From the NCBI GenBank assembly GCA_000999175.1, contig LCJJ01000003.1, positions 1 through 51,941 on the forward strand: 51,941 bases of DNA, written 5' to 3'. Shown here in pieces: positions 3,606-21,520 of the stretch (its first letter is position 1; each line of letters starts with the position of its first letter). Under the pieces are notes generated by a model. That model was not told the origin of the DNA. It searched no databases and was given only the letters and a program-made list of their open reading frames with translations. Both the position numbers and the translations under genes were made by a program. The DNA is from Parcubacteria group bacterium GW2011_GWB1_44_7 (lineage in GTDB: Bacteria > Patescibacteria > Paceibacteria > UBA9973 > DSPV01).

Positions 3606-6600
3606 ATGGCGATGGATGAAGAAAAAACAAACAGGTCAAAATCAGCCGAGCGGGAGGAAAAAATTCTCAAGTTCTGGCAAGATAATAAAATTTTTGAAAA
3701 ATCGGTTAAAAAATCGGCGCCACAAGGCGAATTCACTTTTTACGATGGGCCGCCGTTTGCCAGCGGCACGCCCCATTATGGTCATTTGTTGGCCGGTACA
3801 ATTAAAGATGCCGTGCCGCGTTTTTGGACTATGCGCGGCTTTCGGGTTTCGCGTCGTTGGGGTTGGGATTGCCACGGTTTGCCGGTGGAAAATTTGGTGG
3901 AAAAAGAATTGGGTTTAAAATCGAAAAAGGAGATAGAAAATTACGGCGTGGAAAAATTTAACGCCACCGCTCGCGAAAGCGTTTTGCGTTATGCTGATAT
4001 TTGGCGCGAACAGATTCCGCGTTTCGGCCGATTTGTGGATATGACTGACGATTACCGAACGATGGACGCTAATTATACCGAGAGCGTTTGGTGGGCATTC
4101 AAGAAACTTCACGACAAAGGTTTGATTTACGAAGGTTTCAAATCAATGCATCTTTGTCCGCATTGCGGCACCACGCTTTCCAATTTTGAAGTAGCGCAGG
4201 GATACAGAGACATAAACGATATATCCGTTTATGTAAAATTTAAATTATTAATTTCTAATTCCCAAAGGGATGAAAAAACTTTTCTGTTGGCGTGGACAAC
4301 TACTCCCTGGACATTACCCGGGAATGTCGCCTTGGCGATAGGAAAAAATATTGACTATGTAAAAGTCCAAGTTGGGGAAGAAAAATTGATTTTGGCGAAA
4401 GCGCGACTGGCGGTTTTGAAGCGGGCATATAAAATTTTGGAGGAATTTAAGGGAGAAAAATTAGTCGGATTTTCATACCAACCGCTTTTTGATTACTATC
4501 AAGGTTTGACCTTGGGGTCAGAGAAAGGTCAAACCTTAAAGAACAAAGAGAACGGCTGGAAAATTTACGCCGCTGATTTTGTGACGACCGAAAATGGCAC
4601 CGGCCTTGTTCATATTGCGCCGGCTTTCGGCGAAGACGATTTGTGCTTGGGTGAAAAAGAAAAACTGCCATTCGTTCAGCATGTTGGTCTTGATGGCAAA
4701 TTTAAGAAAGAAGTTTCTGATTTTGTCGGTATGGATGTGAAGCCGAAAGACGACCCAACTCGCGCTGACGTCGCTGTTCTGAAATTTCTAGCCGCCAAGA
4801 ATTTACTTTTTGCCAAAGAAAAAATCACTCATTCTTATCCGCATTGTTGGCGTTGCGAATCGCCGCTTCTAAATTACGCCGCTTCATCTTGGTTCGTGAA
4901 AGTTACGGTTCTTAAGGATAAATTGATTGCCGAGAATAAAAAAATTCATTGGGTGCCGAAAACGATAGGTAAGTTTCGTTTCGGCAATTGGCTAGCCGAA
5001 GCGCGCGATTGGGCGATTTCCCGTTCGCGTTTTTGGGGCGCGCCCTTGCCAGTTTGGCGTTGCGAAAAATGCGGCAAGTTGGAAATTATCGGTTCGGTGG
5101 AAAATATCAAAAAACATTTAAAGCCGCGCAATCGTTATTTTGTAATGCGCCACGGCGAAGCGGAAAATAATATCGCTAAAATTTTGAGCACCAAACCGGA
5201 AAATCCCCATCATCTTACAGAAAAAGGGAAGGGGCAAGTCCGCGCCGCCGCAGAGATTTTAAAAAAAGAAAAAATTGATTTAATTTATGTTTCACCGTTT
5301 GTCCGAACACAAGAAAGCGCTGAGATTGTCCGCGAAGCACTCGGGCTTAAAAAGGAACAAGTGATAATCGATAAGCGGCTGTCCGAGATTTCTGCTCATG
5401 ACTTCAACGGCAAACCGGTATCAGAATTTCAATTAGCTTTTTCTTCTTTGGCCGAACGATTTTCAAAACAAGCCGGCGGCGAAAATTATCGCGAGATAAA
5501 AAATAGAGTCGGGAAGTTTTTATATGAAATTGATACTGATAATTCCGGCAAAAATATCTTGGTTGTTAGTCATGAAGCGCCAATTTGGCTTTTAACCTGC
5601 GCCGCCGCTGGTCTATCAGAAAAACTGGCAATAACTACTTATCCGAGCGACTTTAACAAAAACGATTTTTTGCAAAATGCGGAAATCAAAAGTTTTGATT
5701 TTGTGCCTTTGCCGCGCGACAAAAATTTTGAGTTGAATTTACACCGACCATTCATTGACTCAATAGAATTTGATTGCGCTTGCGGTGGAACAATGCGGCG
5801 AGTGCCAGAGGTTTTTGATTGCTGGTTTGAAAGCGGTTCAATGCCTTTCGCCGAGTGGCATTATCCTTTTGAAAATTTAGAAATCTTTAATCCCAAGCCC
5901 GGGTTATTTCAAAAACCAAAAAGATTTCCAGCCGATTTTATCGCCGAAGGTTTGGACCAAACACGCGGCTGGTTTTATTCAATGCTTGTTCTCGGCGTGG
6001 CGCTATTTGGCAAAGCTCCATACAAAAATGTGATCGTGAACGGTTTGGTGTTGGCCGAAGATGGCCGAAAAATGTCCAAGAGTTTGAAAAATTATCCCGA
6101 ACTTCTGCCCATGCTTGAAAAATATGGCGCTGACGCCATCCGTTTTTACCTTTTGTCATCACCGGCGGTTAGAGCCGAGGACGCGAGGTTTTCCGAAAAG
6201 GGCGTGGATGAAGTGGCAAAAAAAATTATCGGTCGACTAGATAATGTTTTGGCTTTTTATTTGTTGTATGCCGATAAAAATCAAACCAACAATTTACAAC
6301 CCCGCCTCGCCGTCAGGCAGGCAACAACCAACAACATTTTAGACGAGTGGATTTTGGCGCGTTTGAACCAACTTATTGGTGAAGTAACAACGGCAATGGA
6401 AAATTACGAATTGGACAAAGCAACAAGGCCGATTGCCGACTTTGCAGACGATTTATCAACTTGGTATTTGCGTCGTTCCCGCGAACGGATAAAAAGAATA
6501 ATTAATAACGAATTAAGAATTAAGGAAGAAGCAAAAAGTGCCCTAGAAACTTTACGATTTGTTTTGTTGGAATTGGCCAAAGTAATGGCGCCATTTACGC

Positions 6601-7190
6601 CATTCTTTGCGGAGTATCTTTATCAAACATTAAATGATGCTAATATCCGAATGGATATTAATGATGAGAATGTAAAAAGTGTCCATTTGGAAGAATGGTC
6701 CAAAGTAGAGTCAAAAGTTGAAAGCCAAAAGTCAAAAGTTTTGGAAGAGATGGTGGAAGTTCGGCGAATTGTTTCATTGGCTTTGGAAGCGCGGGCGAAA
6801 GCGAATATCAAAGTTCGCCAGCCTCTACGAAAACTCAAAATTAAAAGCCTAAAACTCAAAACTAAAACTGAAATTTTAAAACTTATTCTTGAAGAGGTGA
6901 ATGTGAAGGAGATTGAATTTGATGACAAAATTGGGAGTGAAGTGGAATTAGACATGAACATTACGACCGAATTAAAAAAAGAAGGCGATTATCGCGAATT
7001 AGTTCGGCAAATTCAGGAATTGCGAAAAGAAAAAGGATTTCAACCAGGTCAATTGGCAACATTAGCCACATCGGCTCAAATTGCCGCCACTGGTCTGCTC
7101 CAAGAATTTGAAATTGACTTGAAACGCACGGCTTCGGTGGAAAAAATTAACCACGGCGTTTTGTCGGCTGAAGACTTTGAGTTGCGATAA
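3606..7190 (+). CDS. ileS: Isoleucyl-tRNA synthetase (type 2) with an inserted histidine-phosphatase domain
   Basis: Class I synthetase that charges tRNA-Ile. The HIGH motif appears as PHYGH near residue 58, KMSKS is present in EDGRKMSKSLKNYPE near residue 820, and there are two CxxC zinc sites (CPHCG, CEKCG). The HYGHLLAGTIKD and CGGTMRRVPEVFDCWFESG segments are those of the eukaryote-like type 2 IleRS. Between the CEKCG zinc site and LNLHRP (about residues 505-705) lies an extra ~200-residue block with the marks of a histidine phosphatase/phosphoglycerate mutase: FVMRHGEAENN (RHG), YVSPFVRTQESAEIV and VVSHEAP (second catalytic His). The 1194-residue length exceeds the usual ~1040 because of this insert. 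A 13-bp inverted repeat at 4501-4537 and a GC-rich repeat at 6301-6321 also sit in the frame. The start could be 3606 or 3612. Confidence 0.95.
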   Translation: MAMDEEKTNRSKSAEREEKILKFWQDNKIFEKSVKKSAPQGEFTFYDGPPFASGTPHYGHLLAGTIKDAVPRFWTMRGFRVSRRWGWDCHGLPVENLVEKELGLKSKKEIENYGVEKFNATARESVLRYADIWREQIPRFGRFVDMTDDYRTMDANYTESVWWAFKKLHDKGLIYEGFKSMHLCPHCGTTLSNFEVAQGYRDINDISVYVKFKLLISNSQRDEKTFLLAWTTTPWTLPGNVALAIGKNIDYVKVQVGEEKLILAKARLAVLKRAYKILEEFKGEKLVGFSYQPLFDYYQGLTLGSEKGQTLKNKENGWKIYAADFVTTENGTGLVHIAPAFGEDDLCLGEKEKLPFVQHVGLDGKFKKEVSDFVGMDVKPKDDPTRADVAVLKFLAAKNLLFAKEKITHSYPHCWRCESPLLNYAASSWFVKVTVLKDKLIAENKKIHWVPKTIGKFRFGNWLAEARDWAISRSRFWGAPLPVWRCEKCGKLEIIGSVENIKKHLKPRNRYFVMRHGEAENNIAKILSTKPENPHHLTEKGKGQVRAAAEILKKEKIDLIYVSPFVRTQESAEIVREALGLKKEQVIIDKRLSEISAHDFNGKPVSEFQLAFSSLAERFSKQAGGENYREIKNRVGKFLYEIDTDNSGKNILVVSHEAPIWLLTCAAAGLSEKLAITTYPSDFNKNDFLQNAEIKSFDFVPLPRDKNFELNLHRPFIDSIEFDCACGGTMRRVPEVFDCWFESGSMPFAEWHYPFENLEIFNPKPGLFQKPKRFPADFIAEGLDQTRGWFYSMLVLGVALFGKAPYKNVIVNGLVLAEDGRKMSKSLKNYPELLPMLEKYGADAIRFYLLSSPAVRAEDARFSEKGVDEVAKKIIGRLDNVLAFYLLYADKNQTNNLQPRLAVRQATTNNILDEWILARLNQLIGEVTTAMENYELDKATRPIADFADDLSTWYLRRSRERIKRIINNELRIKEEAKSALETLRFVLLELAKVMAPFTPFFAEYLYQTLNDANIRMDINDENVKSVHLEEWSKVESKVESQKSKVLEEMVEVRRIVSLALEARAKANIKVRQPLRKLKIKSLKLKTKTEILKLILEEVNVKEIEFDDKIGSEVELDMNITTELKKEGDYRELVRQIQELRKEKGFQPGQLATLATSAQIAATGLLQEFEIDLKRTASVEKINHGVLSAEDFELR

Positions 7191-9147: not shown

Positions 9148-9222
9148 GGCCCCATCGTCTAGTCTGGTCTAGGACGTGAGCTTTTCAAGCTTAAAACCCG
9201 GGTTCGAATCCCGGTGGGGTCA
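9148..9222 (+). tRNA. tRNA-Glu (TTC anticodon)
   Basis: A 75-base cloverleaf. The acceptor stem GGCCCCA pairs with TGGGGTC (one G-T pair), with discriminator A at 9222. The D arm is GTC/GAC, the anticodon loop TTTTCAA gives TTC (codon GAA, Glu), and the T arm is CCGGGTTCGAATCCCGG. CCA is not encoded. Confidence 0.95.
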
Positions 9223-9268
9223 AACTTCTTTTTGCTTTGGCGATAATTTTGTTATACAATGCCAACGA

Positions 9269-10822
9269 ATGAAATCGTATTTTTTTAGACTTTCTAAGAC
9301 TAAAAAGTGGCTTTTAGCGGGCGGTTTTTTCATTGTCGTTTTGGCGGCCTATTTTTTATTTTTCCGGGGCAATGGCAATGGTTATGATTTGGCAACGGTC
9401 GTTCGGCAGAATTTGACGGAAGAAGTTTCTATTACCGGCAATGTTAAGGCGGCCGAGAGCGTGAGTTTATCTTTTGAGCGGGCCGGCCGAGTCAGCGCGG
9501 TTTATGCCGAGGCCGGCGCTCGGGTGGCGGCCGGACAAATTATCGCCGCCCTGAATGCCACCGATGAAATTTTGGCGCTTCAGCAGACCGAAGCCAATTT
9601 GGCGGCGGAAGAAGCGGCTTTGGCGGAACTTACGCGCGGTTCTCGGTCGGAAGACATTGTCATTGCTCGGACGAAAGTGGCCAATGCCGAAAAATCTCTG
9701 GCTGATGCCCGCCAATCTCTGCGCGATTATTTGAGTGACGCTTACACTAAATCTAACAACGCTATCGGTGTCTATATTGACCAATTTTTTAATAACCCAA
9801 AAACCGTCAATGCCCAGCTTAATATTATCGTTACCGACAATCAACTGAAGACTTCTTTGGATACCGGTCGTCAGTTGCTGGAAGGTAATTTTATCGCTTG
9901 GCAGAATCTGTTAACCAATTTAAATGATAACGATTTACTGGCCTCGGTCAATCAAGCGGAAAATTACCTGACGGTGCTCCGTGATTTTTTGGAAAAAATG
10001 GCATCAGCGGTTAACGCTTTGTCGCCGACTTCTTCGCTCACTTTGGCAACCGTTACCACTTACCGTTCCGATGTGTCTACCGCTCGAACGGCAATTAATA
10101 CCGCTATTACTAATTTGATTGCCGCCAAGCAAAGCGCTCGCGATGCCGAATCAAGTTTAGCCTTGCAACAAGCGCAGTTAGCCTTGACGCTTGCCGGCAC
10201 GACGCCGGAAGCATTGGCTGCGGAGGAAGCTAAAGTGGCGGTTGCGGCAGCGGCGGTGGCGATTAAAAAACATGCTGTTAATCAAAGCTATCTTTACGCG
10301 CCTTTTGCCGGCGTGGTGGCAAAACAAGACGCTAAAGTCGGACAAGTGGTGGGGACTTTATATACTATCGGCACTTTAAATTCCGAAGGCGCTTTAATTA
10401 TTGAAGCCAATGTGCCGGAAGCTGATATTAGCCGGATTGCCGTTGGCGGCAAGGCCGGAGTTGATTTAGACGCTTTTCCCGGCAAAAAATTTGAAGCCAA
10501 AGTTGTAAAAATTGCTCCGGGCGAAATAGTGATTGAAGGCGTGCCGACTTACAAAGTAACTTTTAATTTTCAAACGCCGATAGATTTTGCCAAATCAGGA
10601 ATGACGGCGAATATTTCAGCGATTGTGGTTGAAAAAATCGGCGTCTTGGCCGTTCCGACGCGGGCGATTGATTTCCGCACCGATGGCGCCTTTGTCAAAG
10701 TGCTGGCCAACGGTCAGATTATTGACAGAAAAATTATCATCGGCGCCCGTTCCAGCGACGGTTTGATGGAAATTCTGGACGGTTTAACCGAAAGCGAGCA
10801 AATCCTTCTAAACTGGCGCTAA
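9269..10822 (+). CDS. HlyD/MacA-type membrane fusion protein (export adaptor)
   Basis: Protein of 517 residues with one N-terminal membrane helix (about residues 13-33, WLLAGGFFIVVLAAYFLFF). A biotinyl-lipoyl-like half motif follows (AESVSLSFERAGRVSAVYAEAGARVAAGQIIAALN), then a long Ala/Gln-rich coiled-coil hairpin (about 95-340), the second lipoyl half (YAPFAGVVAKQDAKVGQVV), and beta-barrel domains ending in VPTRAIDF. This is the periplasmic-adaptor architecture that partners MacB-type ABC exporters. The matching ATPase and permease lie at 17886-19952, so the operon appears split by the DGR. The start at 9269 is chosen because it gives the membrane helix directly, and TACAAT (9255-9260) ends 8 bases before it. 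The longer frame from 9176 would run through tRNA-Glu. Confidence 0.88.
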   Translation: MKSYFFRLSKTKKWLLAGGFFIVVLAAYFLFFRGNGNGYDLATVVRQNLTEEVSITGNVKAAESVSLSFERAGRVSAVYAEAGARVAAGQIIAALNATDEILALQQTEANLAAEEAALAELTRGSRSEDIVIARTKVANAEKSLADARQSLRDYLSDAYTKSNNAIGVYIDQFFNNPKTVNAQLNIIVTDNQLKTSLDTGRQLLEGNFIAWQNLLTNLNDNDLLASVNQAENYLTVLRDFLEKMASAVNALSPTSSLTLATVTTYRSDVSTARTAINTAITNLIAAKQSARDAESSLALQQAQLALTLAGTTPEALAAEEAKVAVAAAAVAIKKHAVNQSYLYAPFAGVVAKQDAKVGQVVGTLYTIGTLNSEGALIIEANVPEADISRIAVGGKAGVDLDAFPGKKFEAKVVKIAPGEIVIEGVPTYKVTFNFQTPIDFAKSGMTANISAIVVEKIGVLAVPTRAIDFRTDGAFVKVLANGQIIDRKIIIGARSSDGLMEILDGLTESEQILLNWR

Positions 10823-10868
10823 ATTTGAAATAAAAAAGGCGAAATGGTAAATTTAATCTATCAAACTT

Positions 10869-13800
10869 ATGGCCAAATCAGAACAAATCAAAAACGAGGA
10901 AATAAATTACGCCGAAAAAGGCGCCGAGCATATAAAGCTTCAAGAGCAATTTGCCGAACGGGCCGGCGAGCCGTATTGGCGCGATAAACAGAAGAGGATA
11001 GAACTTTCCGGTTATAGAGCGAAAGAGGCGGAAATTATTCGGCAAAAAATTGCCAAGTTGGATGAATTGCTAACCGGCGTTGATTGGCAAGCTGAAGACG
11101 CTCGCAAAAAACTGGAAGAGAACTTTGGCGTCAGAGAAAAAATTGAAAAAGAAGAAAAAGCTTTTACCGAAATTCAAAAACTGATGAACGAATTGGCCGC
11201 GAGAGAAAACGAATTAGTGAGGGAGAATTTTGATGTCCGGAGAGAAAGACAGGGTTTGATTGATGAAATAGACAGGGAAGTGTTGGCGGAAAATGAATTA
11301 GCGTTGAGAAAAATTACCGAGCAGCGCGAATCGCTTTTCAAAAATCCCGAGACCGTCCTGTTGGCGCGAATGGCGGAACTAGCCCGTTATCAAACGGAGT
11401 TGAGTAGCGACAATTTTGCCGTTACGCCGTCAAGGAAAGAAGAAATCCGCTGGATAGAAAGGAAAATTGAAGAAGGCCAGCCGATATTTTTGGAGGGACC
11501 GACGGGCACCGGAAAAACCGAGTTGGCGAAAAATGCCACCCGCGAGCTTTACGGCGACAAAGTTCAGGATTTAGATTTGGTTATTCGTTGCGCCCCGAAA
11601 ACCGGTCCGGCTGACATTTTCGGCAAAATTTTACTTCGTTCAAAAGAGGGCACCGAGACCTATTTTCAGCCCGGCAAATTTACTGTGGCGGTGGATAATG
11701 GCGTGCCAGTAATTTTTGACGAAATCAACAATATGGAATCCTCCCAGCGGCTCGGTCTTAAAGAATTTTATAACACTAAACCGGGCAATGCGGTCAGTTT
11801 ACAGGAAGACAGCGGCAGGGCCCATACGGCGCAAAAAGGTTTTACCATAATTGCCACCGCTAATTTGAAGGGTGAAAAACATAAATCCCGCGAGGAATTG
11901 GACACTGCAGAAACCAGAGTTTTCGCCATGCGCCACATTGATTATATGCCTCGCGAAGAACTTTATGACCTTTGTTTGGCGTCAATGATGGGCAGGGAAG
12001 GTCAAGTTTGGGCCGTTCGCAAAGAAATCGCCGAAAGTTTGAAAAATCTTTGCGATGCCGCCGAGGAAATTCAGGACGCTTACAATGGTAATATTGGTGC
12101 TCATTACAACACTCGGTTTCAAACGGAGGCGACCAAAGCTGGAACCAAAGTTGAAGATAAAAATCTTAAAAATGAAAAAAGTTACGGTCTGGTCGGCTCT
12201 AAAGCTAAAAAAGGTTTGGATAAGGCGGTTTTAGACCCCGGCCAAGTAATACAGCTGGCAAAGAGCTATCAAGGTAAAGTCGGCGTTTCTTTGAAATCCC
12301 ATTTGGAGGAAGGTTTGATGGAATTTGTAAGAAAAGGCGATTATCCAGAAAGTGACCGCGATTTAATGATTCGGATTTTTCTTACCAAAGGTTTTTTTGA
12401 GGGCGTTAAGGCGGCTGATTTTGGCTTAAAAACTTTGGATGACGCTCAAATTACAGCTTTGTCCGGCGGTGGTAAAAAAGAAAAACCGGCCAGCAAGCAA
12501 TCAAAAGTCCTATCCTTAAAAGAAGTGGCTAGTATTGACCCATACGAACGATATCAAGCGTTGGTCGAAGAATTGGCCAGTGATTTTTTGAGTCAGGCGC
12601 CACCAATTTCGTCCGAAAGAGGTAAAAGATGGGAAAAGCAACCCGAGAAAATTTCCGCTGAATTTGAAAATCCGATTGATGGCAAAAAAGAAACGATTGA
12701 AATCAATTTTGAAACCGCACTCAAACGGTGGAATGATTTTTTCACGGAAAACAAAGTGGATTTGCCTCCAGATTTTGAAAAAATTGCTCGCGCTATTTGG
12801 AATCAGAATTACGAAAAAATCAAGGAGTCAATAGAAAACCTTGGCTATGACGGCATACTGGTAATTCCCGGCAATCTTAACTTGCCAGATTTTCATCAAA
12901 AGATGTCCCAGGGATATAATCCAACTTTGGAATCGGATAATTTTAAGAAAGGTGGTTCTTGGGCTGGCATCAAAAGCCGCGGCGCCGATAAACCAAGAAT
13001 TGTTCTTTATCACGAGAAAAATACCAAAGAATTGGACGACAATCCAATAACTAAAGCAATGCTAGGCAAAGATTTGATGATAGTAACCGGACTTTCCCAA
13101 GAAGAATTAGAAAAAGCCATCATTGCCGGCGAGCTATTAAAGGGCAAAGTAAGGATTAACAGTGAAGAGTTTGTTTTTGACGGTTTATCGGTTGAGGACT
13201 ATTTAGCAATTCAAGCCGAATACTTTAAGCGGACTGATAAGCACTTGGATGAAAAAAACTATACCCGACTCATTGGCAGTACCAGCGGGTGCCTTGTCCC
13301 CGAGCTCGATTGGGGTCCGGACTATGGCCGGCTCCGTGCCTATGCCCGTGGGCCCGACTTTGCGCATGACAGTTTGGCGCCTCGCCCCGCCGCAGTTTTT
13401 AATTTGGTCTCGGAAATTAGCGATTTTTCTGAATTTAGTTTTAATATTTCTTCCGAATTTGAAAATCTTGACGGTAAAAAAGAGAAAATTGAATTTGATT
13501 TTGAAAAAGAAACGAGACACTGGGCGAAATTTTACGAAAATCACAAAATTGGTTTTCCGCCAGATTTTGCCGAACAAGTAACCGATGTGCTGGGACGCAA
13601 TCGCGTGGAAATGGAAAAATCAATTGAAAAAATGGGTTATGATAAAGTCATAATTGTTCCGCCCGGTCTTGATGCTGCTATCCTTCATAAAAAAATAACA
13701 GAAGGATATGTTGAAACCGCTCAATGGAATTCCTTTAAAAACGCTGGCGGTTTTGGGGGAATTACGACGCCAAATGCCGATAAATTAAGAATCGTTTTAG

Positions 13801-14225
13801 TTCATGAAAAAAACGCTCAAAACAATAATGGCCACCCCATCTTAAAAGAGTTGAGAGGAAAATCTGTAACAAAACTCGCCGGTTTGGCCGGTCTTACCAA
13901 AGAAAAAGTTCAAGAACTTTTGGATAGCGGAGGAGAAATCTTCATGCAAGCGGAAATCAAAGGTCGCACCTTCAATTTCAACGGTCTTGATGTTCTTGCT
14001 TATCTCATTTGGCAAAAAGATTATTGCGAACGAAACAGCGGCCAACACATAGATGAAAACAGTTGGTCGGCTTTATCCGGTAGTTCAATTGGTAAAACAA
14101 CGGCAGGGTGCCTTGTCCCCGAGCTCCGTTGGCATCCGGGCCCTGGCCGGCTCAATGCCATTGCCCCTGAGCCCGACCATGCGTATGGCGATTTGGCGCC
14201 TCGTCCCGCCGCAGTTTTTGTTTGA
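10869..14225 (+). CDS. MoxR-like AAA+ ATPase with two tandem DGR-variable modules (DGR target)
   Basis: Protein of 1118 residues. Residues ~1-175 are charged and coiled-coil-like. An AAA+ domain follows, with Walker A GPTGTGKT (210-217), Walker B VIFDEIN (281-287) and sensor-1 IIATAN (328-333), of the MoxR type that remodels proteins together with vWA partners. The C-terminal half is a tandem duplication: modules at about 595-850 and 857-1118 share EFEN.DGKKE.IE, an LPPDF/FPPDF segment, ADK.RIVL.HEKN and a variable end. Each module ends in a variable repeat (residues ~806-844 and ~1080-1117) bounded by constant GCLVPEL and LAPRPAAVF. A C-type-lectin-like fold is plausible for the ends but not demonstrable here. 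TAATCT (10854-10859) lies 9 bases before the ATG. It is the target diversified by the neighbouring RT; the natural ligand is unknown. Confidence 0.92.
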   Translation: MAKSEQIKNEEINYAEKGAEHIKLQEQFAERAGEPYWRDKQKRIELSGYRAKEAEIIRQKIAKLDELLTGVDWQAEDARKKLEENFGVREKIEKEEKAFTEIQKLMNELAARENELVRENFDVRRERQGLIDEIDREVLAENELALRKITEQRESLFKNPETVLLARMAELARYQTELSSDNFAVTPSRKEEIRWIERKIEEGQPIFLEGPTGTGKTELAKNATRELYGDKVQDLDLVIRCAPKTGPADIFGKILLRSKEGTETYFQPGKFTVAVDNGVPVIFDEINNMESSQRLGLKEFYNTKPGNAVSLQEDSGRAHTAQKGFTIIATANLKGEKHKSREELDTAETRVFAMRHIDYMPREELYDLCLASMMGREGQVWAVRKEIAESLKNLCDAAEEIQDAYNGNIGAHYNTRFQTEATKAGTKVEDKNLKNEKSYGLVGSKAKKGLDKAVLDPGQVIQLAKSYQGKVGVSLKSHLEEGLMEFVRKGDYPESDRDLMIRIFLTKGFFEGVKAADFGLKTLDDAQITALSGGGKKEKPASKQSKVLSLKEVASIDPYERYQALVEELASDFLSQAPPISSERGKRWEKQPEKISAEFENPIDGKKETIEINFETALKRWNDFFTENKVDLPPDFEKIARAIWNQNYEKIKESIENLGYDGILVIPGNLNLPDFHQKMSQGYNPTLESDNFKKGGSWAGIKSRGADKPRIVLYHEKNTKELDDNPITKAMLGKDLMIVTGLSQEELEKAIIAGELLKGKVRINSEEFVFDGLSVEDYLAIQAEYFKRTDKHLDEKNYTRLIGSTSGCLVPELDWGPDYGRLRAYARGPDFAHDSLAPRPAAVFNLVSEISDFSEFSFNISSEFENLDGKKEKIEFDFEKETRHWAKFYENHKIGFPPDFAEQVTDVLGRNRVEMEKSIEKMGYDKVIIVPPGLDAAILHKKITEGYVETAQWNSFKNAGGFGGITTPNADKLRIVLVHEKNAQNNNGHPILKELRGKSVTKLAGLAGLTKEKVQELLDSGGEIFMQAEIKGRTFNFNGLDVLAYLIWQKDYCERNSGQHIDENSWSALSGSSIGKTTAGCLVPELRWHPGPGRLNAIAPEPDHAYGDLAPRPAAVFV
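13285..13399 (+). repeat. DGR variable repeat 1 (VR1), internal
   Basis: A 115-base segment aligning without gaps to the template repeat at 14463-14577. All 14 mismatches fall on template adenines; for example template AAT codons are read here as GAT, GGT, TAT, CGT, CAT and AGT. The last 26 bases, ending GCCGCAGTTTT, are identical to the template and would serve as the initiation-of-mutagenic-homology site. It encodes residues ~806-844, inside the protein and not at its end, which is unusual for a VR. Confidence 0.95.
14106..14218 (+). repeat. DGR variable repeat 2 (VR2), C-terminal
   Basis: A 113-base segment aligning without gaps to 14465-14577. Of 14 differences, 13 are at template adenines and one is a C-to-T (CGC to CGT, silent) in the constant 3' part. 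It encodes the last residues of the target protein, two codons before the stop. Confidence 0.95.
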
Positions 14226-14462
14226 TTTAGTATCGGAATTTAGAGTTTTTTGATTTTAAATTTAGTTTTGTTTTTTCGGCTAGTAGACCATGGTTAATGC
14301 CAGCTGGTTGCCGAAAACGTCAGCCGGTCAAAAGACCTTAACAAAGTTAGAACCGGGCCAGGCGGTAAAAATAAACTGCAGTCGCTTTTTGGGCCGCAGT
14401 GGCGGCTTAATAAATTTTATTGTTCCTACGGTTGCCTTGGATAAAAAGCGGCTAATTGCGGG
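14226..14462 (+). other. Non-coding stretch upstream of the template repeat
   Basis: No convincing gene. The first ~50 bases (14219-14270) resemble the linker that follows VR1 (TCGGAA, then AATTTAGTTTT) but lie beyond the target stop, so they look like a decayed copy of that linker. Further on there is a GC-rich hairpin (GCCGC at 14393-14397 with GCGGC at 14402-14406). The region probably forms the 5' part of the template RNA; a short open frame from 14290 runs into the repeat and is not credible as a gene. Confidence 0.5.
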
Positions 14463-14577
14463 GCGGGTGCCTTGTCCCCGAGCTCAATTGGAATCCGGAC
14501 AATGGCCGGCTCAATGCCAATGCCAATGAGCCCGACAATGCGAATGACAATTTGGCGCCTCGCCCCGCCGCAGTTTT
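14463..14577 (+). repeat. DGR template repeat (TR)
   Basis: A 115-base repeat with nine AAT codons in the VR frame, the classic design for adenine mutagenesis because AAT can become many codons but no stop. It contains 24 adenines in the 113-base core. Its 3' end matches the VRs exactly up to GCAGTTTT and then diverges (C in place of T). It ends exactly where the stop codon of the opposite-strand avd gene begins. Confidence 0.95.
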
Positions 14578-14954
14578 CAAGAATGAGCGCGACAGAATCT
14601 TAGCCAGCCGCCGGTCATTTTTCCCAGTTCCAACAGTTGTTTTTCTGTGCCGAGATATTTCGAAAATTCAATAAATTTTGCCCCCAGAGCTAGACGGAAA
14701 ATGATTTTCAAGACATCTATTTTCGCGCCAAGGCGAATCAGATAATTTTCCCTTTCATATTTGGTGGCGATATTGGCGGAGACGGCTAACTCTATACTTT
14801 CCAAAATCAATCTCTCAATTTTTTCGCCCAAGCTGTATCTTTCGTGTTTGGGGAAAGAGCGAATGGCTTGGCGGGCGTTTTCGTAGAGCATTGATAAATG
14901 ATAAATTATTGGCGTTTCTTGGAATGAATCTTTATTTGGTTTTTCTTTTTCCAT
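14577..14954 (-). CDS. avd: Avd-like DGR accessory protein (four-helix bundle)
   Basis: A 125-residue, all-helical, basic protein of the Avd/S23-like four-helix-bundle family. The segments LSMLYENARQAIRSFPKHERYSLGEKIERL, LGAKIDVLKIIFRLALGAKFI and LELGKMTGGWLRFCR are typical, and the length is close to that of the well-studied phage Avd. In DGRs Avd binds the reverse transcriptase and template RNA and is required for mutagenic cDNA synthesis. It lies on the minus strand, facing the template repeat at its 3' end, and its ATG (14954-14952) shares the bases CATG with the RT start on the plus strand. Opposite orientation and shared start region mean that a transcript covering TR and RT would be antisense to avd. 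Confidence 0.85.
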   Translation of the reverse strand: MEKEKPNKDSFQETPIIYHLSMLYENARQAIRSFPKHERYSLGEKIERLILESIELAVSANIATKYERENYLIRLGAKIDVLKIIFRLALGAKFIEFSKYLGTEKQLLELGKMTGGWLRFCRAHS

Positions 14955-15945
14955 GAATTTTAATAAATTATTTTCTCCTGATAATTTGTTTAAGGCGTGG
15001 TTTATTTATCGGCGGGGAAAGACAAAAAAGTTCGAGGTAATCGCTTTTGAAAGAAATATTGAACGAGAATTGTTTTTGCTTTCTGAAAATATTATTTCTG
15101 GTTCCTACCGCCATGGCGTCTATGATAGATTTTCAGTGCAGGATGTTAAAAAGCGAGAGATTAACACCGCTTCAATTAGAGACAAAATTATTCATCAGGT
15201 GATTCATTGTTTTTTGACGGAAGTATACGAAAAAACTTTCTCGGAACATTCTTTTTCTTCCAGGGTGGGCAAAGGAACGGACAAAGCAGTTGATAAATTA
15301 TCTTTTTTCTTGCGAAGCGAAAGAAACTGGCATTACGGCAAATGTTTTGCCTTAAAATGCGATATCAAGAAATATTTTGATAATATTAACCATAACATTC
15401 TTATCGGTTTAATCCGTCGCAAAATCATTGATAAAAAGACAATGGCTATTATTGAGGAAATTATTAGAAGTTTTGAAAGAGAAAAAAATAAGGGGTTGCC
15501 ATTAGGTAATGTGACCAGTCAGATTTTCGCTAACATTTACCTAAACGAGTTGGATTGTTTTGTTGAAAAAGATTTCAAAATAAGAAAATATATCAGATAT
15601 AACGATGATTTTGTGATTGTGGACAGTAACAAAAAAACTTTAGAGTCATTGAAAGGTATCGTCAGAAAATTTTTGAAGCAAAAATTGCAACTGGATACGC
15701 CGAAAAATAAAACGGTAATAAGAAAATTTGACTGGGGAATTGAATTTTTGGGCCGGATTATTTTGCCCAACGCAGTGATTTTGCGTTCAAAAACCAAAAC
15801 AAAAATTCTTAGGAATCTTTCCAAAGAAAACAAAAATTCTTACCTTGGCTTGCTGGTCAACCTTAATGAATTTAAATTCAGCAGAAAATTGTTGACGAAA
15901 TTAACGCTGGCGGATTGGGATAAATTTGATATGATGACAGCATGA
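14953..15945 (+). CDS. DGR-type reverse transcriptase
   Basis: A 330-residue reverse transcriptase without maturase or endonuclease domain, the size expected of a DGR RT. Visible motifs: YRHGVYDRFSV.D.KKREI near residues 52-70, KCDIKKYFDNI with the first catalytic Asp (137), GLPLGNVTSQIFANIYLNELD (181-201, the DGR-characteristic form of motif 4 with SQ), and YNDD (216-219) with the two catalytic Asp residues. YNDD is a variant of the more usual YxDD forms. It should copy the template RNA with errors at adenines. The ATG at 14953 overlaps the avd start, and the stop overlaps the vWA start (ATGA at 15942-15945). Confidence 0.95.
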   Translation: MNFNKLFSPDNLFKAWFIYRRGKTKKFEVIAFERNIERELFLLSENIISGSYRHGVYDRFSVQDVKKREINTASIRDKIIHQVIHCFLTEVYEKTFSEHSFSSRVGKGTDKAVDKLSFFLRSERNWHYGKCFALKCDIKKYFDNINHNILIGLIRRKIIDKKTMAIIEEIIRSFEREKNKGLPLGNVTSQIFANIYLNELDCFVEKDFKIRKYIRYNDDFVIVDSNKKTLESLKGIVRKFLKQKLQLDTPKNKTVIRKFDWGIEFLGRIILPNAVILRSKTKTKILRNLSKENKNSYLGLLVNLNEFKFSRKLLTKLTLADWDKFDMMTA

Positions 15946-17879
15946 AAGAAGGATTAGAAAGTGAAGCAATCGCTACGGCGGTTGCCCAAGAACAAACGGA
16001 TTTTTTTGAAAAGAACGGCGCCTTTTTTGCTTCTTATGCCGGCGATTCTTCTTTGGAAATAAAACAGAGCCCCCAAGGGCTAGGAACTTTTGCCATAGAT
16101 TTGGAAAAAGGTGTGATGTATGCCGAACCGAATTTTTGGGAACAAGCGGGAGGTTTTGGAGAAAGCGACAAAGTTTTTGCCACCCTGCATGAATTTGAAC
16201 ATTTCAAAGAAATGATGGAAATGATAAACAAAAAAGGGGGATTAGCAAAATTTAAAAAGCATTTAGATAAATTTAAAAAAAGAAAAAGGTTTTCAATTCT
16301 TGATAATTGCGTGGATGACATAAAAATGAATCGTTCGGTAATCGGTCGAGCGAGCGCCCTGGATGAAACCAGAAATCGTTTGTATGAGAAAAGATTATTT
16401 CCTGAAGATGATTTGTCTAAAGCGCCGAAGCATCTTCAATTTTCCCAAGCGCTTTTGCGCGAAGCAATGTTGCCCAACAGACAAACCGTCGTTTCATCCG
16501 ATATCCGGACGGAAGTTGAAAGGATTAAAAATATAAAAAGCGGCGGGATTTCGCTGATGGATTTTATAACCGCTCCCAATACGCCGATGGAAACGCGATT
16601 GAAACTCCAAGAGAGATTTTTGGAACCGGTGATGGAAAAGTTTTTTAAGGAGGATGCGGCACAAAAGAAAAAAGAGAAAGAAGAAGGTGAAGGAGATTCA
16701 GGAAATGGTGAAGGTGAAGACGGAGAAGAAGGAGAGGGAGAAAGTGAAAAAGAAGAAAAAGACAAGAAAAATAATAAACCCCAAAAGAGTAAAAAGAGTA
16801 GCAAAAACAAACCAGAAAATTCTGAAGATTATTTTAAAAACGAATACGAAGAGTGGGATAAAAAAAATCCACCAACTTTGCCAATGGCAGAAATTGAAAA
16901 GGCACTAAAAGAACATGAAAAAGCAAAAAAAGAAGAAAAAACGCCAGCGGAGTTGGCAGAGGAAGTTTATGCTAAAGCTGAAGGAATTACTGCTGAAGAA
17001 TTGCGGGAATATCGTAAGTTTTTAGAAAACTTGGAAGAAATCAAAAATCCTGAGACCGATGAGTCGGTAGTTGAGGAAATCCGGACAATTTTTAAAAAAA
17101 TTATCGCTGAAAGAAAGAAAAAAACCTTGAGGAGTAAGTTGCCGGCGGAAGAGGGGGAAATTCTGGCCTTTCCGGCCCAAGCCCATATTGCGGTAGAGAG
17201 TGGAAATTTTGAGCCGAGGGTTTGGGAGACGGTTGATTGGAAAGATAAACCAAAAGAGCTATTCGGCGAATTTGATGTGACCATTGTCTGTGACCGGAGT
17301 GGTTCTATGGAACGGCCGTCAAGCAAAAAAATTGAACAACGCAAGGCGGCGGCACTGGTAATGGAAGCGCTCAAAGAATTTTCTGACGAATTGGGTGAAG
17401 AAAAGCCGTATTTGGAGTTTGACCTCAATGTCCGTTCGGAGATTTGGACTTTCGGCGATGATAAGCAAGTGGAAATGCTTAAACCGCTTGATAAAAACCT
17501 GACCGAAAAACAAAGAGTTCTGGTCTACAAAACTTTGGAAAATACCCCCGGTGATAGCACTAAGGATTTTTCGGCTTTGGAAAAAATTAGAGATGGGGTG
17601 CCGGCGGGGGACTGGGCTAAAATTCAAAAAAGAAAACTAAAAAAATTAGTGATTGTTTTGACCGATGGCGATAGCGATAACCCCAGCGCAGTGCAAGGAC
17701 TCTTAAGAGAATTTAGAGAGAAAGGAATGGTAGTGATTGGTGTGGGAATCACTGCCGAAGGGGCAAGCGCCAAAACGACTTACGCGCCGGATGGTATGGT
17801 TTGCGAAAAAGTTGAGGACTTGGCGGGGGTTTTAGGAAACTTATTGAGCAAGCATATAAAGGAATTAAATACCGGTTAA
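15942..17879 (+). CDS. vWA-domain protein with N-terminal HExxH (DUF2201-like) region, MoxR partner
   Basis: A 645-residue protein in three parts. The N-terminal ~200 residues contain LHEFEHF (HExxH at 83-87) and, about 35 residues on, DNCVDDIKMNR, a spacing reminiscent of the metallopeptidase-like region found N-terminal to vWA in MoxR partners. Residues ~235-300 are a highly charged Glu/Lys/Gly linker. The C-terminal vWA domain (about 440-640) has the MIDAS motif CDRSGSM, a distal Thr in GDSTKDF, and LTDGDSDNP. Such vWA proteins work with MoxR ATPases in metal-dependent remodelling or protein capture. It overlaps the RT stop by ATGA, indicating coupled translation. Whether the HExxH is catalytic is unknown. 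The partner is very probably the ATPase at 10869. Confidence 0.85.
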   Translation: MKEGLESEAIATAVAQEQTDFFEKNGAFFASYAGDSSLEIKQSPQGLGTFAIDLEKGVMYAEPNFWEQAGGFGESDKVFATLHEFEHFKEMMEMINKKGGLAKFKKHLDKFKKRKRFSILDNCVDDIKMNRSVIGRASALDETRNRLYEKRLFPEDDLSKAPKHLQFSQALLREAMLPNRQTVVSSDIRTEVERIKNIKSGGISLMDFITAPNTPMETRLKLQERFLEPVMEKFFKEDAAQKKKEKEEGEGDSGNGEGEDGEEGEGESEKEEKDKKNNKPQKSKKSSKNKPENSEDYFKNEYEEWDKKNPPTLPMAEIEKALKEHEKAKKEEKTPAELAEEVYAKAEGITAEELREYRKFLENLEEIKNPETDESVVEEIRTIFKKIIAERKKKTLRSKLPAEEGEILAFPAQAHIAVESGNFEPRVWETVDWKDKPKELFGEFDVTIVCDRSGSMERPSSKKIEQRKAAALVMEALKEFSDELGEEKPYLEFDLNVRSEIWTFGDDKQVEMLKPLDKNLTEKQRVLVYKTLENTPGDSTKDFSALEKIRDGVPAGDWAKIQKRKLKKLVIVLTDGDSDNPSAVQGLLREFREKGMVVIGVGITAEGASAKTTYAPDGMVCEKVEDLAGVLGNLLSKHIKELNTG

Positions 17880-17885
17880 TTTTTT

Positions 17886-18602
17886 ATGGCGCTGATTGAA
17901 ATCAAAAAGCTCGGCAAGATTTACGACGGCGGCGAGAATGAAACCCGCGCTCTTTCCGGCGTTGATTTGACGATTGAACGAGGCGATTTTGTGGCGGTGA
18001 TGGGGCCGTCGGGTTCCGGCAAATCCACCCTGCTTCACATCTTGGGTTTTTTGGACGATTATACTTTCGGCCAATATTTTTTTGACGGCAAAGAAATTGG
18101 TAAGTATCTGCCGGACGAAGTGGCGAGATTGCGCAATCAAAAATTCGGTTTTGTTTTTCAAGCGTTTAATTTGTTGCCTCGGACCAATGTTTTAGAAAAT
18201 GTGAAAATGCCGTTGGTTTATTCTGATGTGCCGGAAAAGGCCTGGGATAATTTAGCGCGACAAGCGATTGAAGCGGTTGGTTTGACTCATCGGGCCGAAC
18301 ACGAGCCGTCGCAGCTTTCCGGCGGAGAAAAACAGAGAGTGGCGATTGCCCGGGCCCTGGTCAATAATCCGGAAGTGATTTTTGCCGACGAACCGACCGG
18401 CAATTTAGATTCCAAATCGGGCCAAGCGGTGATGGATATTATCTGGCAACTTAACATTAAACAGAAAAAAACGATTATTCTAATCACTCACGAAACCTAC
18501 ACCGCCGAACATGCCCGCCGCATCATTCGTTTATTGGATGGGGAAATAGAAAGCGTTCAATTGGTCGCCAATCGCCGCGGCGAAGGCGATTTTGAAAAAT
18601 AA
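17886..18602 (+). CDS. MacB/LolD-type ABC transporter ATP-binding protein
   Basis: A 238-residue ABC ATPase. Walker A is GPSGSGKST (about residues 39-47), the Q-loop [18 protein letters not shown] is followed by the ABC signature [19 protein letters not shown], Walker B is [13 protein letters not shown], and ILITHE is the H-loop. This pattern, with NLLPR and EPTGNLD, is that of the MacB/LolD/FtsE export subfamily. It starts 6 bases after the vWA stop. It would energise the permease at 18711 and act with the HlyD-type adaptor at 9269, now 7 kb upstream because of the DGR cassette. Confidence 0.93.
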
Positions 18603-18612
18603 AATGATTATA

Positions 18613-18702
18613 GATTAAGAAATAGCGTCGCAAGCAAGCTTTTTACGAGGTGGGGCAAGGGCTGGTCAGTAAAAAGCTTGCTAAGAAAGACATTTCTTAA
18701 TC
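18613..18702. repeat. 90-base imperfect inverted repeat between ABC ATPase and permease genes
   Basis: Two pairs of arms nest: an outer 11-bp pair (18613-18623 with 18692-18702) and an inner 14-bp pair (18633-18646 with 18669-18682), both perfect, separated by 9-base internal loops on each side. The top loop is 22 bases. It could be a processing or attenuation hairpin between operon genes, or a small non-autonomous palindromic element. It lacks a terminal T-run of the usual kind. Confidence 0.7.
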
Positions 18703-18710
18703 CAAATAAT

Positions 18711-19952
18711 ATGTTTGTGAAATATAGTTTAAAAACAGCAGCTAAAGGTTTGCGGACCAATCGGAGCCGTTCATTTTTAACGATTTTGGGAATTGTTATT
18801 GGCATTACCGCCATTATGCTCGTAATGTCTCTGGGTCGCGGCGCTCAAGATTTGATTTTGAATCAGATTCAAAGCATCGGTTCCAAAACTATTGCCGTTA
18901 TTCCCGGCCGGCAACCGACGGGGATTTCCGATTCATTGTCGTCTTTTTCCGATTCTCTTAAGAATAAAGATGTGGAAGATTTACAGAAAAAATCCAATGT
19001 ACCCCATTTAACGAGAATTATGCCAATTGTTTTTGGTCCAGTGGTTGCCACTAAAGGCAATAAAGTTCACCAAACGACGGTTTTCGGCGTTAATAATTTT
19101 TTTGCCGAGATTTACAATATCTATCCGTCGGATGGTCGCTTGTTTACGGACGAAGAAGTCACTTCCAAATCCGCTGTGGTCATTATCGGCTCTAAAGTCA
19201 AGAACGAATTATTTGATTACGGTGAGCCGGTATTAGGTCAAAAAATCAGAGTGAAAAATCAAAGTTTGCGGATTGTCGGCGTTTTGCCCAACAAGGGCCA
19301 GTTTTCTTTTATCAGTTTTGATGACGCTTTGATTATGCCTTATACCACCGCCCAGCAATATATTTTCGGCATTAAATATTTCAATCGGTTGGTGATTGAG
19401 GCTGACTCTGAAATCAATGTGGTAGCGACTGTTGCCGATATTGAAACCACCTTGCGCAACAATCATCACATTGCCGACCCCGATAAGGATGATTTTTTCG
19501 TAGAAACCCAAGCTCAAGCGATGGCGCTGGTTAGCGCCATTACTAATGCTTTAACTTTGTTTCTGGCGGCGGTGGCGGCCATTTCCCTGATTGTCGGCGG
19601 GGTGGGGATTATGAATATTATGCTGGTATCAGTGACCGAACGGACGCGAGAAATCGGTTTACGCAAAGCCGTCGGCGCCACTAATCGCAATATCCTGACG
19701 CAATTTCTTTTGGAATCGGTGATGCTGACAAGTATCGGCGGAATTATCGGCATTGTTCTTGGCACCGGTTTATCGTTTGTCATTTCGCTGATTTTGTCAA
19801 AATTTGTCGGCTTGAACTGGGTTTTTACTTTTCCTCTTATGGCGGTTTTTCTCGGGCTTGGCGTTTCCGGCGCCGTCGGTTTGGTCTTCGGCATTTATCC
19901 GGCTCGCCAAGCATCGCTCAAAAGCCCGATGGAAGCCTTGCGGTATGAGTAA
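18711..19952 (+). CDS. MacB-like ABC transporter permease (FtsX-domain)
   Basis: A 413-residue membrane protein with the MacB/FtsX layout. One N-terminal helix (SFLTILGIVIGITAIMLVMSLGRG) is followed by a ~220-residue external MacB-PCD-like domain and three C-terminal helices (ALTLFLAAVAAISLIVGG, FLLESVMLTSIGGIIGIVLG, FPLMAVFLGLGVSGAVGLVFG). The motif MNIMLVSVTERTREIGLRKAVGAT and the end YPARQASLKSPMEALRYE are strongly diagnostic. It should export a peptide, lipid or small molecule with the ATPase at 17886; the substrate is unknown. The start at 18711 (MFVKYSLKTAAKGLRTNRSR) fits the family; the longer frame from 18678 would begin inside the inverted repeat. Confidence 0.93.
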   Translation: MFVKYSLKTAAKGLRTNRSRSFLTILGIVIGITAIMLVMSLGRGAQDLILNQIQSIGSKTIAVIPGRQPTGISDSLSSFSDSLKNKDVEDLQKKSNVPHLTRIMPIVFGPVVATKGNKVHQTTVFGVNNFFAEIYNIYPSDGRLFTDEEVTSKSAVVIIGSKVKNELFDYGEPVLGQKIRVKNQSLRIVGVLPNKGQFSFISFDDALIMPYTTAQQYIFGIKYFNRLVIEADSEINVVATVADIETTLRNNHHIADPDKDDFFVETQAQAMALVSAITNALTLFLAAVAAISLIVGGVGIMNIMLVSVTERTREIGLRKAVGATNRNILTQFLLESVMLTSIGGIIGIVLGTGLSFVISLILSKFVGLNWVFTFPLMAVFLGLGVSGAVGLVFGIYPARQASLKSPMEALRYE

Positions 19953-20713: not shown

Positions 20714-21520
20714 ATGCCGAGTGACACAAAAATCGCTTTGTTTAAGGGTAAACAAATCAGGAAAATTCTTCATCAAAAAGAGTGGTGGTTTTCCGTAGTC
20801 GATGTGTGCGCGGTGCTTACGGAGAGTGTTGATGCCGGTGCGTATTGGAGAAAACTCAAACAGCGTCTTAAGGAGGAAGGAAGCGAGGTCGTGACATTTT
20901 GTCACGACCTGAAATTACTTGCTACCGACGGAAAGTATTATGAAACCGATTGCGCTAACACCGAAGGTATTTTTCGCATCATTCAATCTGTCCCATCGCC
21001 CAAAGCCGAGCCGTTTAAGAGGTGGCTGGCGCGGGTGGGTTACGAGCGAGTCCAGGAAATTGAAAATCCGGAATTGGCCACCAAACGAACTAGAACTCTT
21101 TACAAACTCAAGGGCTATTCCGATAGCTGGATTGAAAAACGAATGCGTGGCATCGCTATTCGTGAAGAATTAACCGATGAGTGGCAAAAACGAGGGGTGG
21201 CCAGACAGAGGGACTATGAAATTTTAACCGCCGAAATTTCCAAAGCGACTTTTGGCGTTGTCCCGAGTCAATACAAAAAATTAAAAGGTTTGAAACGAGA
21301 AAATTTGCGTGACCATATTAATGACTTGGAGTTGATTTTTACAATGCTCGGCGAACGCGCCACAACTGAAATTCATCGCGACGAGAATTCGCAAGGCATC
21401 CCAAAATTGAAAGCTGACGCCAAAACCGGTGGTGGTATTGCTGGTGGGGCGAGAAAGCAATTGGAAAAGCGTCTTGGTCGGACGATTATTTCAAAAAAGA
21501 ATTTCCGGCTTCTAAAATGA
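20714..21520 (+). CDS. Bro-N domain protein (phage antirepressor-like)
   Basis: A 268-residue protein whose N-terminal ~110 residues match the BRO/antirepressor domain: IRKILHQKEWWFSVVDVCAVLTES, then YWRKLKQRLKEEG, then YYETDCANTEGIFRIIQSVPSPKAEPFKRWLARVGYERVQEIENPEL. The C-terminal part (about 115-268) is basic and carries SDSWIEKRMRGIAIREELTDEWQKRGV; I recognise no separate domain there. Bro-N proteins bind DNA and are typical of phages, but chromosomal copies are common in CPR genomes. It sits between frr and rseP and its stop overlaps the rseP ATG (ATGA, 21517-21520), so it is co-translated with a core gene. The host function is unknown. Confidence 0.85.
   Translation: MPSDTKIALFKGKQIRKILHQKEWWFSVVDVCAVLTESVDAGAYWRKLKQRLKEEGSEVVTFCHDLKLLATDGKYYETDCANTEGIFRIIQSVPSPKAEPFKRWLARVGYERVQEIENPELATKRTRTLYKLKGYSDSWIEKRMRGIAIREELTDEWQKRGVARQRDYEILTAEISKATFGVVPSQYKKLKGLKRENLRDHINDLELIFTMLGERATTEIHRDENSQGIPKLKADAKTGGGIAGGARKQLEKRLGRTIISKKNFRLLK

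Follow-up and report, generated by a model that had tools for sequence, protein, structure and literature searches.

Probably retroelement-diversified tips on a MoxR-clade AAA+ ATPase with a recurrent vWA-hydrolase partner: a candidate remodelling or proteolytic machine in Patescibacteria

What would a retroelement gain by rewriting the end of a molecular motor? Bacteria of the candidate phyla radiation (CPR) are unusually rich in diversity-generating retroelements (DGRs), and a 2021 survey, quoted here in part like the other PMC sources below, left open the role of their domain-poor, apparently non-membrane targets (PMC8144416). The DNA studied here (hereafter the window: 51,941 nt, in forward-strand coordinates of contig LCJJ01000003.1, assembly GCA_000999175.1, Parcubacteria group bacterium GW2011_GWB1_44_7) carries at 10869-17879, in this order, a gene for an AAA+ ATPase, a template repeat (TR), an Avd accessory gene, a reverse transcriptase (RT) gene and a gene for a protein with a von Willebrand factor A (vWA) domain. 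An earlier note, made from the sequence alone, had proposed that the ATPase-vWA pair as a whole is the diversified effector. We estimate at roughly 0.5 the probability that the DGR-diversified ATPase and the vWA protein form a remodelling or proteolytic machine, likely acting against variable foreign proteins in the cell, and we infer that its function is defence or sensing.

The DGR at this locus is real, with adenine-biased TR/VR pairs, an RT and an Avd. On recomputation, the positions, adenine-linked mismatches and AAT codons that the earlier note had given for the two variable repeats (VR1 and VR2) and their template all held. Against 24 template adenines in 115 nt, VR1 shows 14 mismatches, all of them at adenine (hypergeometric p 5.5e-12), and VR2 shows 14 against 24 adenines in 113 nt, 13 of them at adenine (p 8e-10); when VR2 is set on the 115-nt frame of VR1, it has three non-adenine differences, two of them at the 5' edge. 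Each repeat has changed 13-14 of the 24 template adenines, while the other bases changed at 0/91 positions in VR1 and 3/91 in VR2. Every one of the template's AAT codons is altered in VR1 and 8/9 in VR2, and over the 115 nt it is the first and second codon positions that carry the differences (14/14 in VR1, 14/16 in VR2). The RT and the Avd-like gene were also confirmed, with PF00078 and PF22296 matched over their cut-offs (for Avd, 54.7 bits and 1.7e-14 against a cut-off of 40, while NCBIfam NF033474 scores 67.5 bits, under its cut-off of 80). Avd lies on the minus strand, which the earlier note did not mention, and this antisense arrangement to the RT recurs in all 13 vWA-family loci that have both genes and in 53 of the 54 RT loci that have both (the exception is L108). 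In the RT tree, the window RT groups with those of loci L008 and L009 (SH-aLRT 99). Among the PADLOC models, it also matches the general one for RTs (1e-52) and many of those for DRTs; given the TR/VR evidence, this non-DGR reading was set aside.

Comparison between relatives points in the same direction. The protein P0006, 90% identical to the window ATPase (P0001), differs from it at 18 of the 18 AAT-codon positions, as defined by the window's template and not by P0006's own, at 13/56 other VR positions and at 81/1044 positions elsewhere. Between these two close relatives, the changes are concentrated on template AAT codons, and the differences at the other VR positions suggest that the P0006 template is not identical to that of the window. 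Similarly, P0014 and P0015 differ at 14/35 positions in a tail chosen by eye and at 60/778 elsewhere. The more distant P0008 differs from the window protein at equal rates within the VRs (31/74) and outside them (425/1004), as expected because the rest of the protein has already diverged. From the anatomy of the DGR, its adenine bias and these comparisons, it is likely that the retroelement rewrites the tips of the ATPase.

The earlier note had called this ATPase MoxR-like. In Pfam, the match is to AAA_5 (PF07728, dynein-related; 41.5 bits, cut-off 22), with AAA_3 under its cut-off, so the name calls for some refinement. The best solved relatives of the ATPase family profile are midasin (2.6e-43) and NorQ (5.1e-11), and by sequence the protein belongs to the MoxR clade in the sense of PMC7159879, in which dynein/midasin, MoxR and the chelatases are placed together. 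A PHROG named porphyrin biosynthesis also matches the ATPase (4.9e-16), whereas PHROG matches to the tips are only weak. A genome scan with P0001 as its single query gave no relatives, and a plasmid scan with it gave matches to the AAA part alone, in three haloarchaeal plasmids. The tips are related to free-standing DGR targets (A4 hidden Markov model, best 3.6e-12), and several modules come with free-standing tip proteins of their own. Their fold is harder to place: the AF2 model of the tip is poor (pLDDT 52.4), profile searches gave no match to the CLec fold and only PDB matches that were not significant or were unlikely in kind, and hhalign gave none to the FGE-sulfatase set, which held three sequences only.

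The partner gene begins within the RT stop codon (an ATGA overlap) and, as the earlier note described, encodes both a vWA domain and an HExxH motif (HEFEH, at residue 83). In a search with this protein (P0004), 7994 candidates were scored and 234 of them reached E 1e-3, and the motif counts given in Table 1 refer to the 120 listed of these 234. Despite the HExxH motif, the putative zinc peptidase half matches no peptidase family in Pfam or NCBIfam. The C-terminal half is predicted by modelling to have the fold of the MIDAS (metal ion-dependent adhesion site) domain of Rea1/midasin and NorD: NorQD and Rea1 lead the Foldseek results (NorQD at rank 1), and Rea1/MDN1 stands out by VIA-align. The hydrolase half appears exchangeable, as a transglutaminase-like domain (PF01841) replaces the HExxH domain, with the vWA part kept, in L055 (6624-9260), L088 (1167-3680) and L107 (15292-18081), and these transglutaminase-like partners form a sister branch.

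Table 1. Coordinates and supporting evidence for the parts of the module in the window
Feature	Position	Strand	Evidence
DGR target: AAA+ ATPase, 1118 aa, two tandem variable C-terminal tips	10869..14225	+	PF07728 AAA_5
AAA+ core (residues 206-344), Walker A GPTGTGKT, Walker B VIFDEI	11484..11900	+	Pfam, motif
Tip domain 1 (residues 595-851), VR1 at its end	12651..13422	+	42% identical to tip 2
VR1	13285..13399	+	14/14 mismatches at template A
Tip domain 2 (residues 862-1118), VR2 at its end	13452..14222	+	Likeness to tip 1, A4 HMM
VR2	14106..14218	+	13/14 mismatches at template A
Template repeat (TR)	14463..14577	+	Nine AAT codons in the target's frame
Avd accessory gene	14577..14954	-	PF22296 bAvd; antisense, head-to-head with RT
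DGR reverse transcriptase, 330 aa	14953..15945	+	PF00078 3.4e-22
vWA (MIDAS) partner, N-terminal HExxH domain, 645 aa	15942..17879	+	PF00092 over cut-off
HEFEH motif (residues 83-87)	16188..16202	+	HExxH in 117/120 homologues listed
MIDAS motif DRSGS (residues 451-455)	17292..17306	+	DxSxS in 120/120 homologues listed

Does the vWA gene belong to this system, or does it merely stand beside it? Among 17 genome loci of the vWA family, 13 carry RT and Avd by tblastn, ten have adenine-biased TR/VR pairs, and eight (L003, L004, L006, L011, L013, L014, L015 and L016) have a PF07728 gene over cut-off on the sequenced stretch. Four lack an RT. In L002, L012 and L017, the contig ends close to the vWA gene or within it; the fourth, L007, has a vWA-family gene without RT or ATPase on its stretch, with genes for a peptidoglycan-binding protein and a CNNM/CBS protein upstream, and is a real or possible exception to the RT linkage. 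In L013 and L014, the genes follow a second order, vWA-ATPase-TR-Avd-RT. Approached from the RT side, 57 RT-anchored stretches included 49 with an adenine-biased VR and three (L059, L088 and L107) with a detected AAA-VR target, and the vWA-family profile found a member at all three AAA-target loci versus 0/54 other RT loci. Counted in the 54 is L083, which has AAA and tip-like open reading frames (ORFs); Pfam shows a vWA gene there through CobT_C (5.2e-17), while a VR was not detected. When 379 genomes were drawn evenly from the phylum, five were matched by the vWA profile (E 1e-40) and 110 by the RT (E 1e-20); two of the five were known from the earlier scan, and two others, G192 and G195, matched over the vWA half alone. 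L055 and L056, found via vWA, are further modules with a DGR: L055 has its RT broken into two ORFs, and L056 carries its VRs on free-standing tip proteins, the ATPase having none. The RT tree needs eight label changes for vWA coupling, three of them forced by well-supported branches, so that the coupling has probably been gained or lost repeatedly.

One could still suppose an ordinary DGR with the vWA gene as a passive hitch-hiker that has no part in the work of the tip. L007 fits this idea, as does L054, where an ATPase-vWA pair stands without tip, VR or RT; the AAA-vWA pair can therefore exist alone. However, L054 also suggests that ATPase and vWA protein belong together even without a DGR, MoxR-clade AAA+ proteins generally act with vWA co-factors (PMC7159879), and the linkage is kept over divergent loci and in two gene orders, so we regard a mere passenger as very improbable. 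Judged by gene content, the vWA gene is a recurrent partner and not a chance neighbour, and the link to the DGR on which the earlier note had staked its proposal is present in homologous loci.

How could such a pair work as a remodelling or proteolytic machine? The ATPase would form a ring presenting several variable tips, and a tip that happened to fit a target would recruit it. The target would then be remodelled at the cost of ATP, with the MIDAS protein as co-factor. Cutting or modifying it would fall to the partner's hydrolase half, which is zincin-like in the window and transglutaminase-like in the sister branch; alternatively, this half would be activated in the process. The Walker, MIDAS and HExxH motifs are all intact in the window. 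It is tempting to go further and speculate on a bacterial adaptive proteolysis. The tips by which a midasin/NorQD-like unfoldase grips its clients would be renewed continuously by the retroelement, the unfoldase would pass these clients to whichever hydrolase its MIDAS partner bears, and a population of Patescibacteria could in this way evolve the ability to degrade or modify new intruding proteins; this extension is tentative, and we hold it to be clearly less probable than the machine itself. If it is true that the hydrolase acts on tip-bound proteins, this would be a hypermutable protein-degradation system. The pairing of AAA+ motor and vWA-hydrolase gives one class of CPR targets a testable biochemical role, and it connects DGRs with protein-remodelling machines of a family already known.

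Several members of that family resemble the window pair. NorQD/CbbQO likewise combine a MoxR-clade AAA+ protein with a vWA partner, and the likeness extends to the sequence of the motor and the Foldseek rank of the partner; they act on a fixed client, and we know of no variable tips or DGR among them. Midasin (Rea1/MDN1) serves ribosome assembly in eukaryotes as a single giant chain that contains several AAA modules. Cobaltochelatase-type CobS/CobT pairs are pointed to by the porphyrin-biosynthesis PHROG and by the CobT_C match of the L083 partner, whereas the window partner has no CobT match in Pfam, and to our knowledge these pairs have no variable tips either.

Closer relatives are found among DGR targets and conflict systems. 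AAA-fused DGR targets have been called the commonest CPR architecture (PMC10907252, citing Paul et al. 2017), and the CPR AAA-CLec targets described there resemble the window in having a variable C-terminal domain on an AAA ATPase in a CPR DGR; the quoted parts of PMC10907252 mention no vWA-hydrolase partner such as the window has, although some of it may already be described in Paul et al. 2017. Cyanobacteria and proteobacteria are known to have DGR/MoxR/vWA conflict systems (PMC7159879), and the VMAP ternary forms of these (PMC7159879, PMC10907252) share with the window, in a single locus, a MoxR-clade AAA+ protein, a vWA protein, a DGR-diversified recognition domain and peptidase domains. 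They differ in that it is mostly the vWA protein that bears the variable domain and a VMAP-like third gene is present (PMC7159879), whereas in the window the VRs lie in the AAA+ gene, the vWA protein bears the hydrolase-like domain and no widely recurring third gene accompanies them. Among ORFs of at least 100 aa in the 4-kb flanks of 18 module loci, where contig ends truncate some of the flanks, no third gene is widely shared, and no third component was found with the VMAP model, which was run only on proteins given to Pfam. CPR bacteria were left out of the multicellularity association test (PMC7159879), the targets of CPR clade 2 typically lack recognisable domains (PMC8144416), and the quoted text of PMC10907252 reports no conflict-system domains for CPR/DPANN clade 5F and does not take up the loci of CPR clade 2. 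The proposal of a diversified ATPase-vWA effector stands as far as a DGR-diversified MoxR-clade AAA+ protein with a recurrent vWA partner is concerned, but neither an AAA-fused target nor a DGR/MoxR/vWA system is new as such (PMC10907252, PMC7159879). By its gene composition, the window fits an intermediate, with the AAA-tip fusion as in CPR and the vWA partner as in conflict systems, in a two-gene form. What is new is the recurrent two-gene module of AAA-tip and vWA-hydrolase, in which the motor carries the variation and the hydrolase is swapped; a search of the literature by terms, which did not extend to Paul et al. 2017, found no report on a vWA/MoxR partner of CPR DGRs.

This resemblance brings in a second explanation, by analogy with what has been proposed for the DGR/MoxR systems of multicellular bacteria: the tips would do no more than bind a ligand, the signal would pass through the AAA+ ring, and the vWA-hydrolase would turn on its own cell, producing dormancy or death. 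The parts are much as in those systems (PMC10907252, PMC7159879), and the branches differ in their hydrolase half but keep the vWA part, and such effector displacement in a kept context is among the marks of conflict systems (PMC7159879). The toxin gene adjoining L015 and the related ORF adjoining L107 would also suit such a sensor. However, the placement of the variation on the motor and the lack of a wide third gene depart from the systems of PMC7159879, in which the third component is a defining one, and those of PMC10907252 are tied to multicellular bacteria, the morphology of CPR being called undetermined there. We consider an antigen sensor unlikely, though the most serious of the alternatives to the remodelling machine. 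The ORFs in question lie at 12420-13133 (L015) and 18156-18797 (L107) and are related to each other, that of L015 being an AbiEii-type toxin nucleotidyltransferase.

The setting of the module invites a third explanation. It lies between an HlyD-type gene (9176-10822, 46-base gap) and MacB-type ABC genes (17886-19952, 6-base gap), as though inserted in an efflux operon, and the machine might assemble or export variable tips for binding to the cell of a host or a neighbour. Host attachment has been proposed for CPR DGRs (PMC10221324), and the free-standing tip proteins beside several modules would be suited to it. Nevertheless, neither the motor nor the partner has a membrane span by hydropathy (maxima 0.82 and 0.89 versus 2.34 and 2.56 in two membrane-protein controls), which also speaks against an adhesin and agrees with the earlier view that this is not a simple one. 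Moreover, the transporter link is not general, because among the related loci scanned MacB genes were matched only in L003 (about 7 kb off its module) and weakly in L054, with one further ABC-type match in L107. A role at the surface thus seems rather improbable, and a cytosolic remodelling or proteolytic machine remains the reading that we prefer.

As for where these modules reside, the widest family in the flanks is that of large serine recombinases, present at three loci (L056, L059 and L088, the last by similarity only), which hints at mobility. Phage records searched with P0004, and IMG/VR searched with the P0004 family alignment, returned nothing, so there is no sign of a phage home. The MreB protein of the window is 82% identical to that of the L008 genome and 77% to that of the L012 genome, while all 189 matches among plasmid-collection records are below 60%; its relatives place the window in Patescibacteria, and among the 17 compared, the L008 lineage is by sequence the nearest to it. 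An Rfam scan of 10000-19000 gave no match at gathering score, and a 79-aa ORF overlapping the template has no Pfam family match. Ten neighbour genes were included in the Pfam scan, among them HlyD, MacB and MreB.

Some observations concern other genes and genomes. Genome G195, of about 1.1 Mb, holds at least five separate DGR RT loci (L056, L061, L074, L075 and L076). Upstream of the module, at 3606-7190, the window encodes a class I tRNA synthetase (Pfam I/L/M/V type) with an internal histidine phosphatase domain (PF00300, 8e-33, residues 512-672). Downstream, at 20714-21520, it encodes a protein with a Bro-N domain, a family frequent in viruses and mobile elements.

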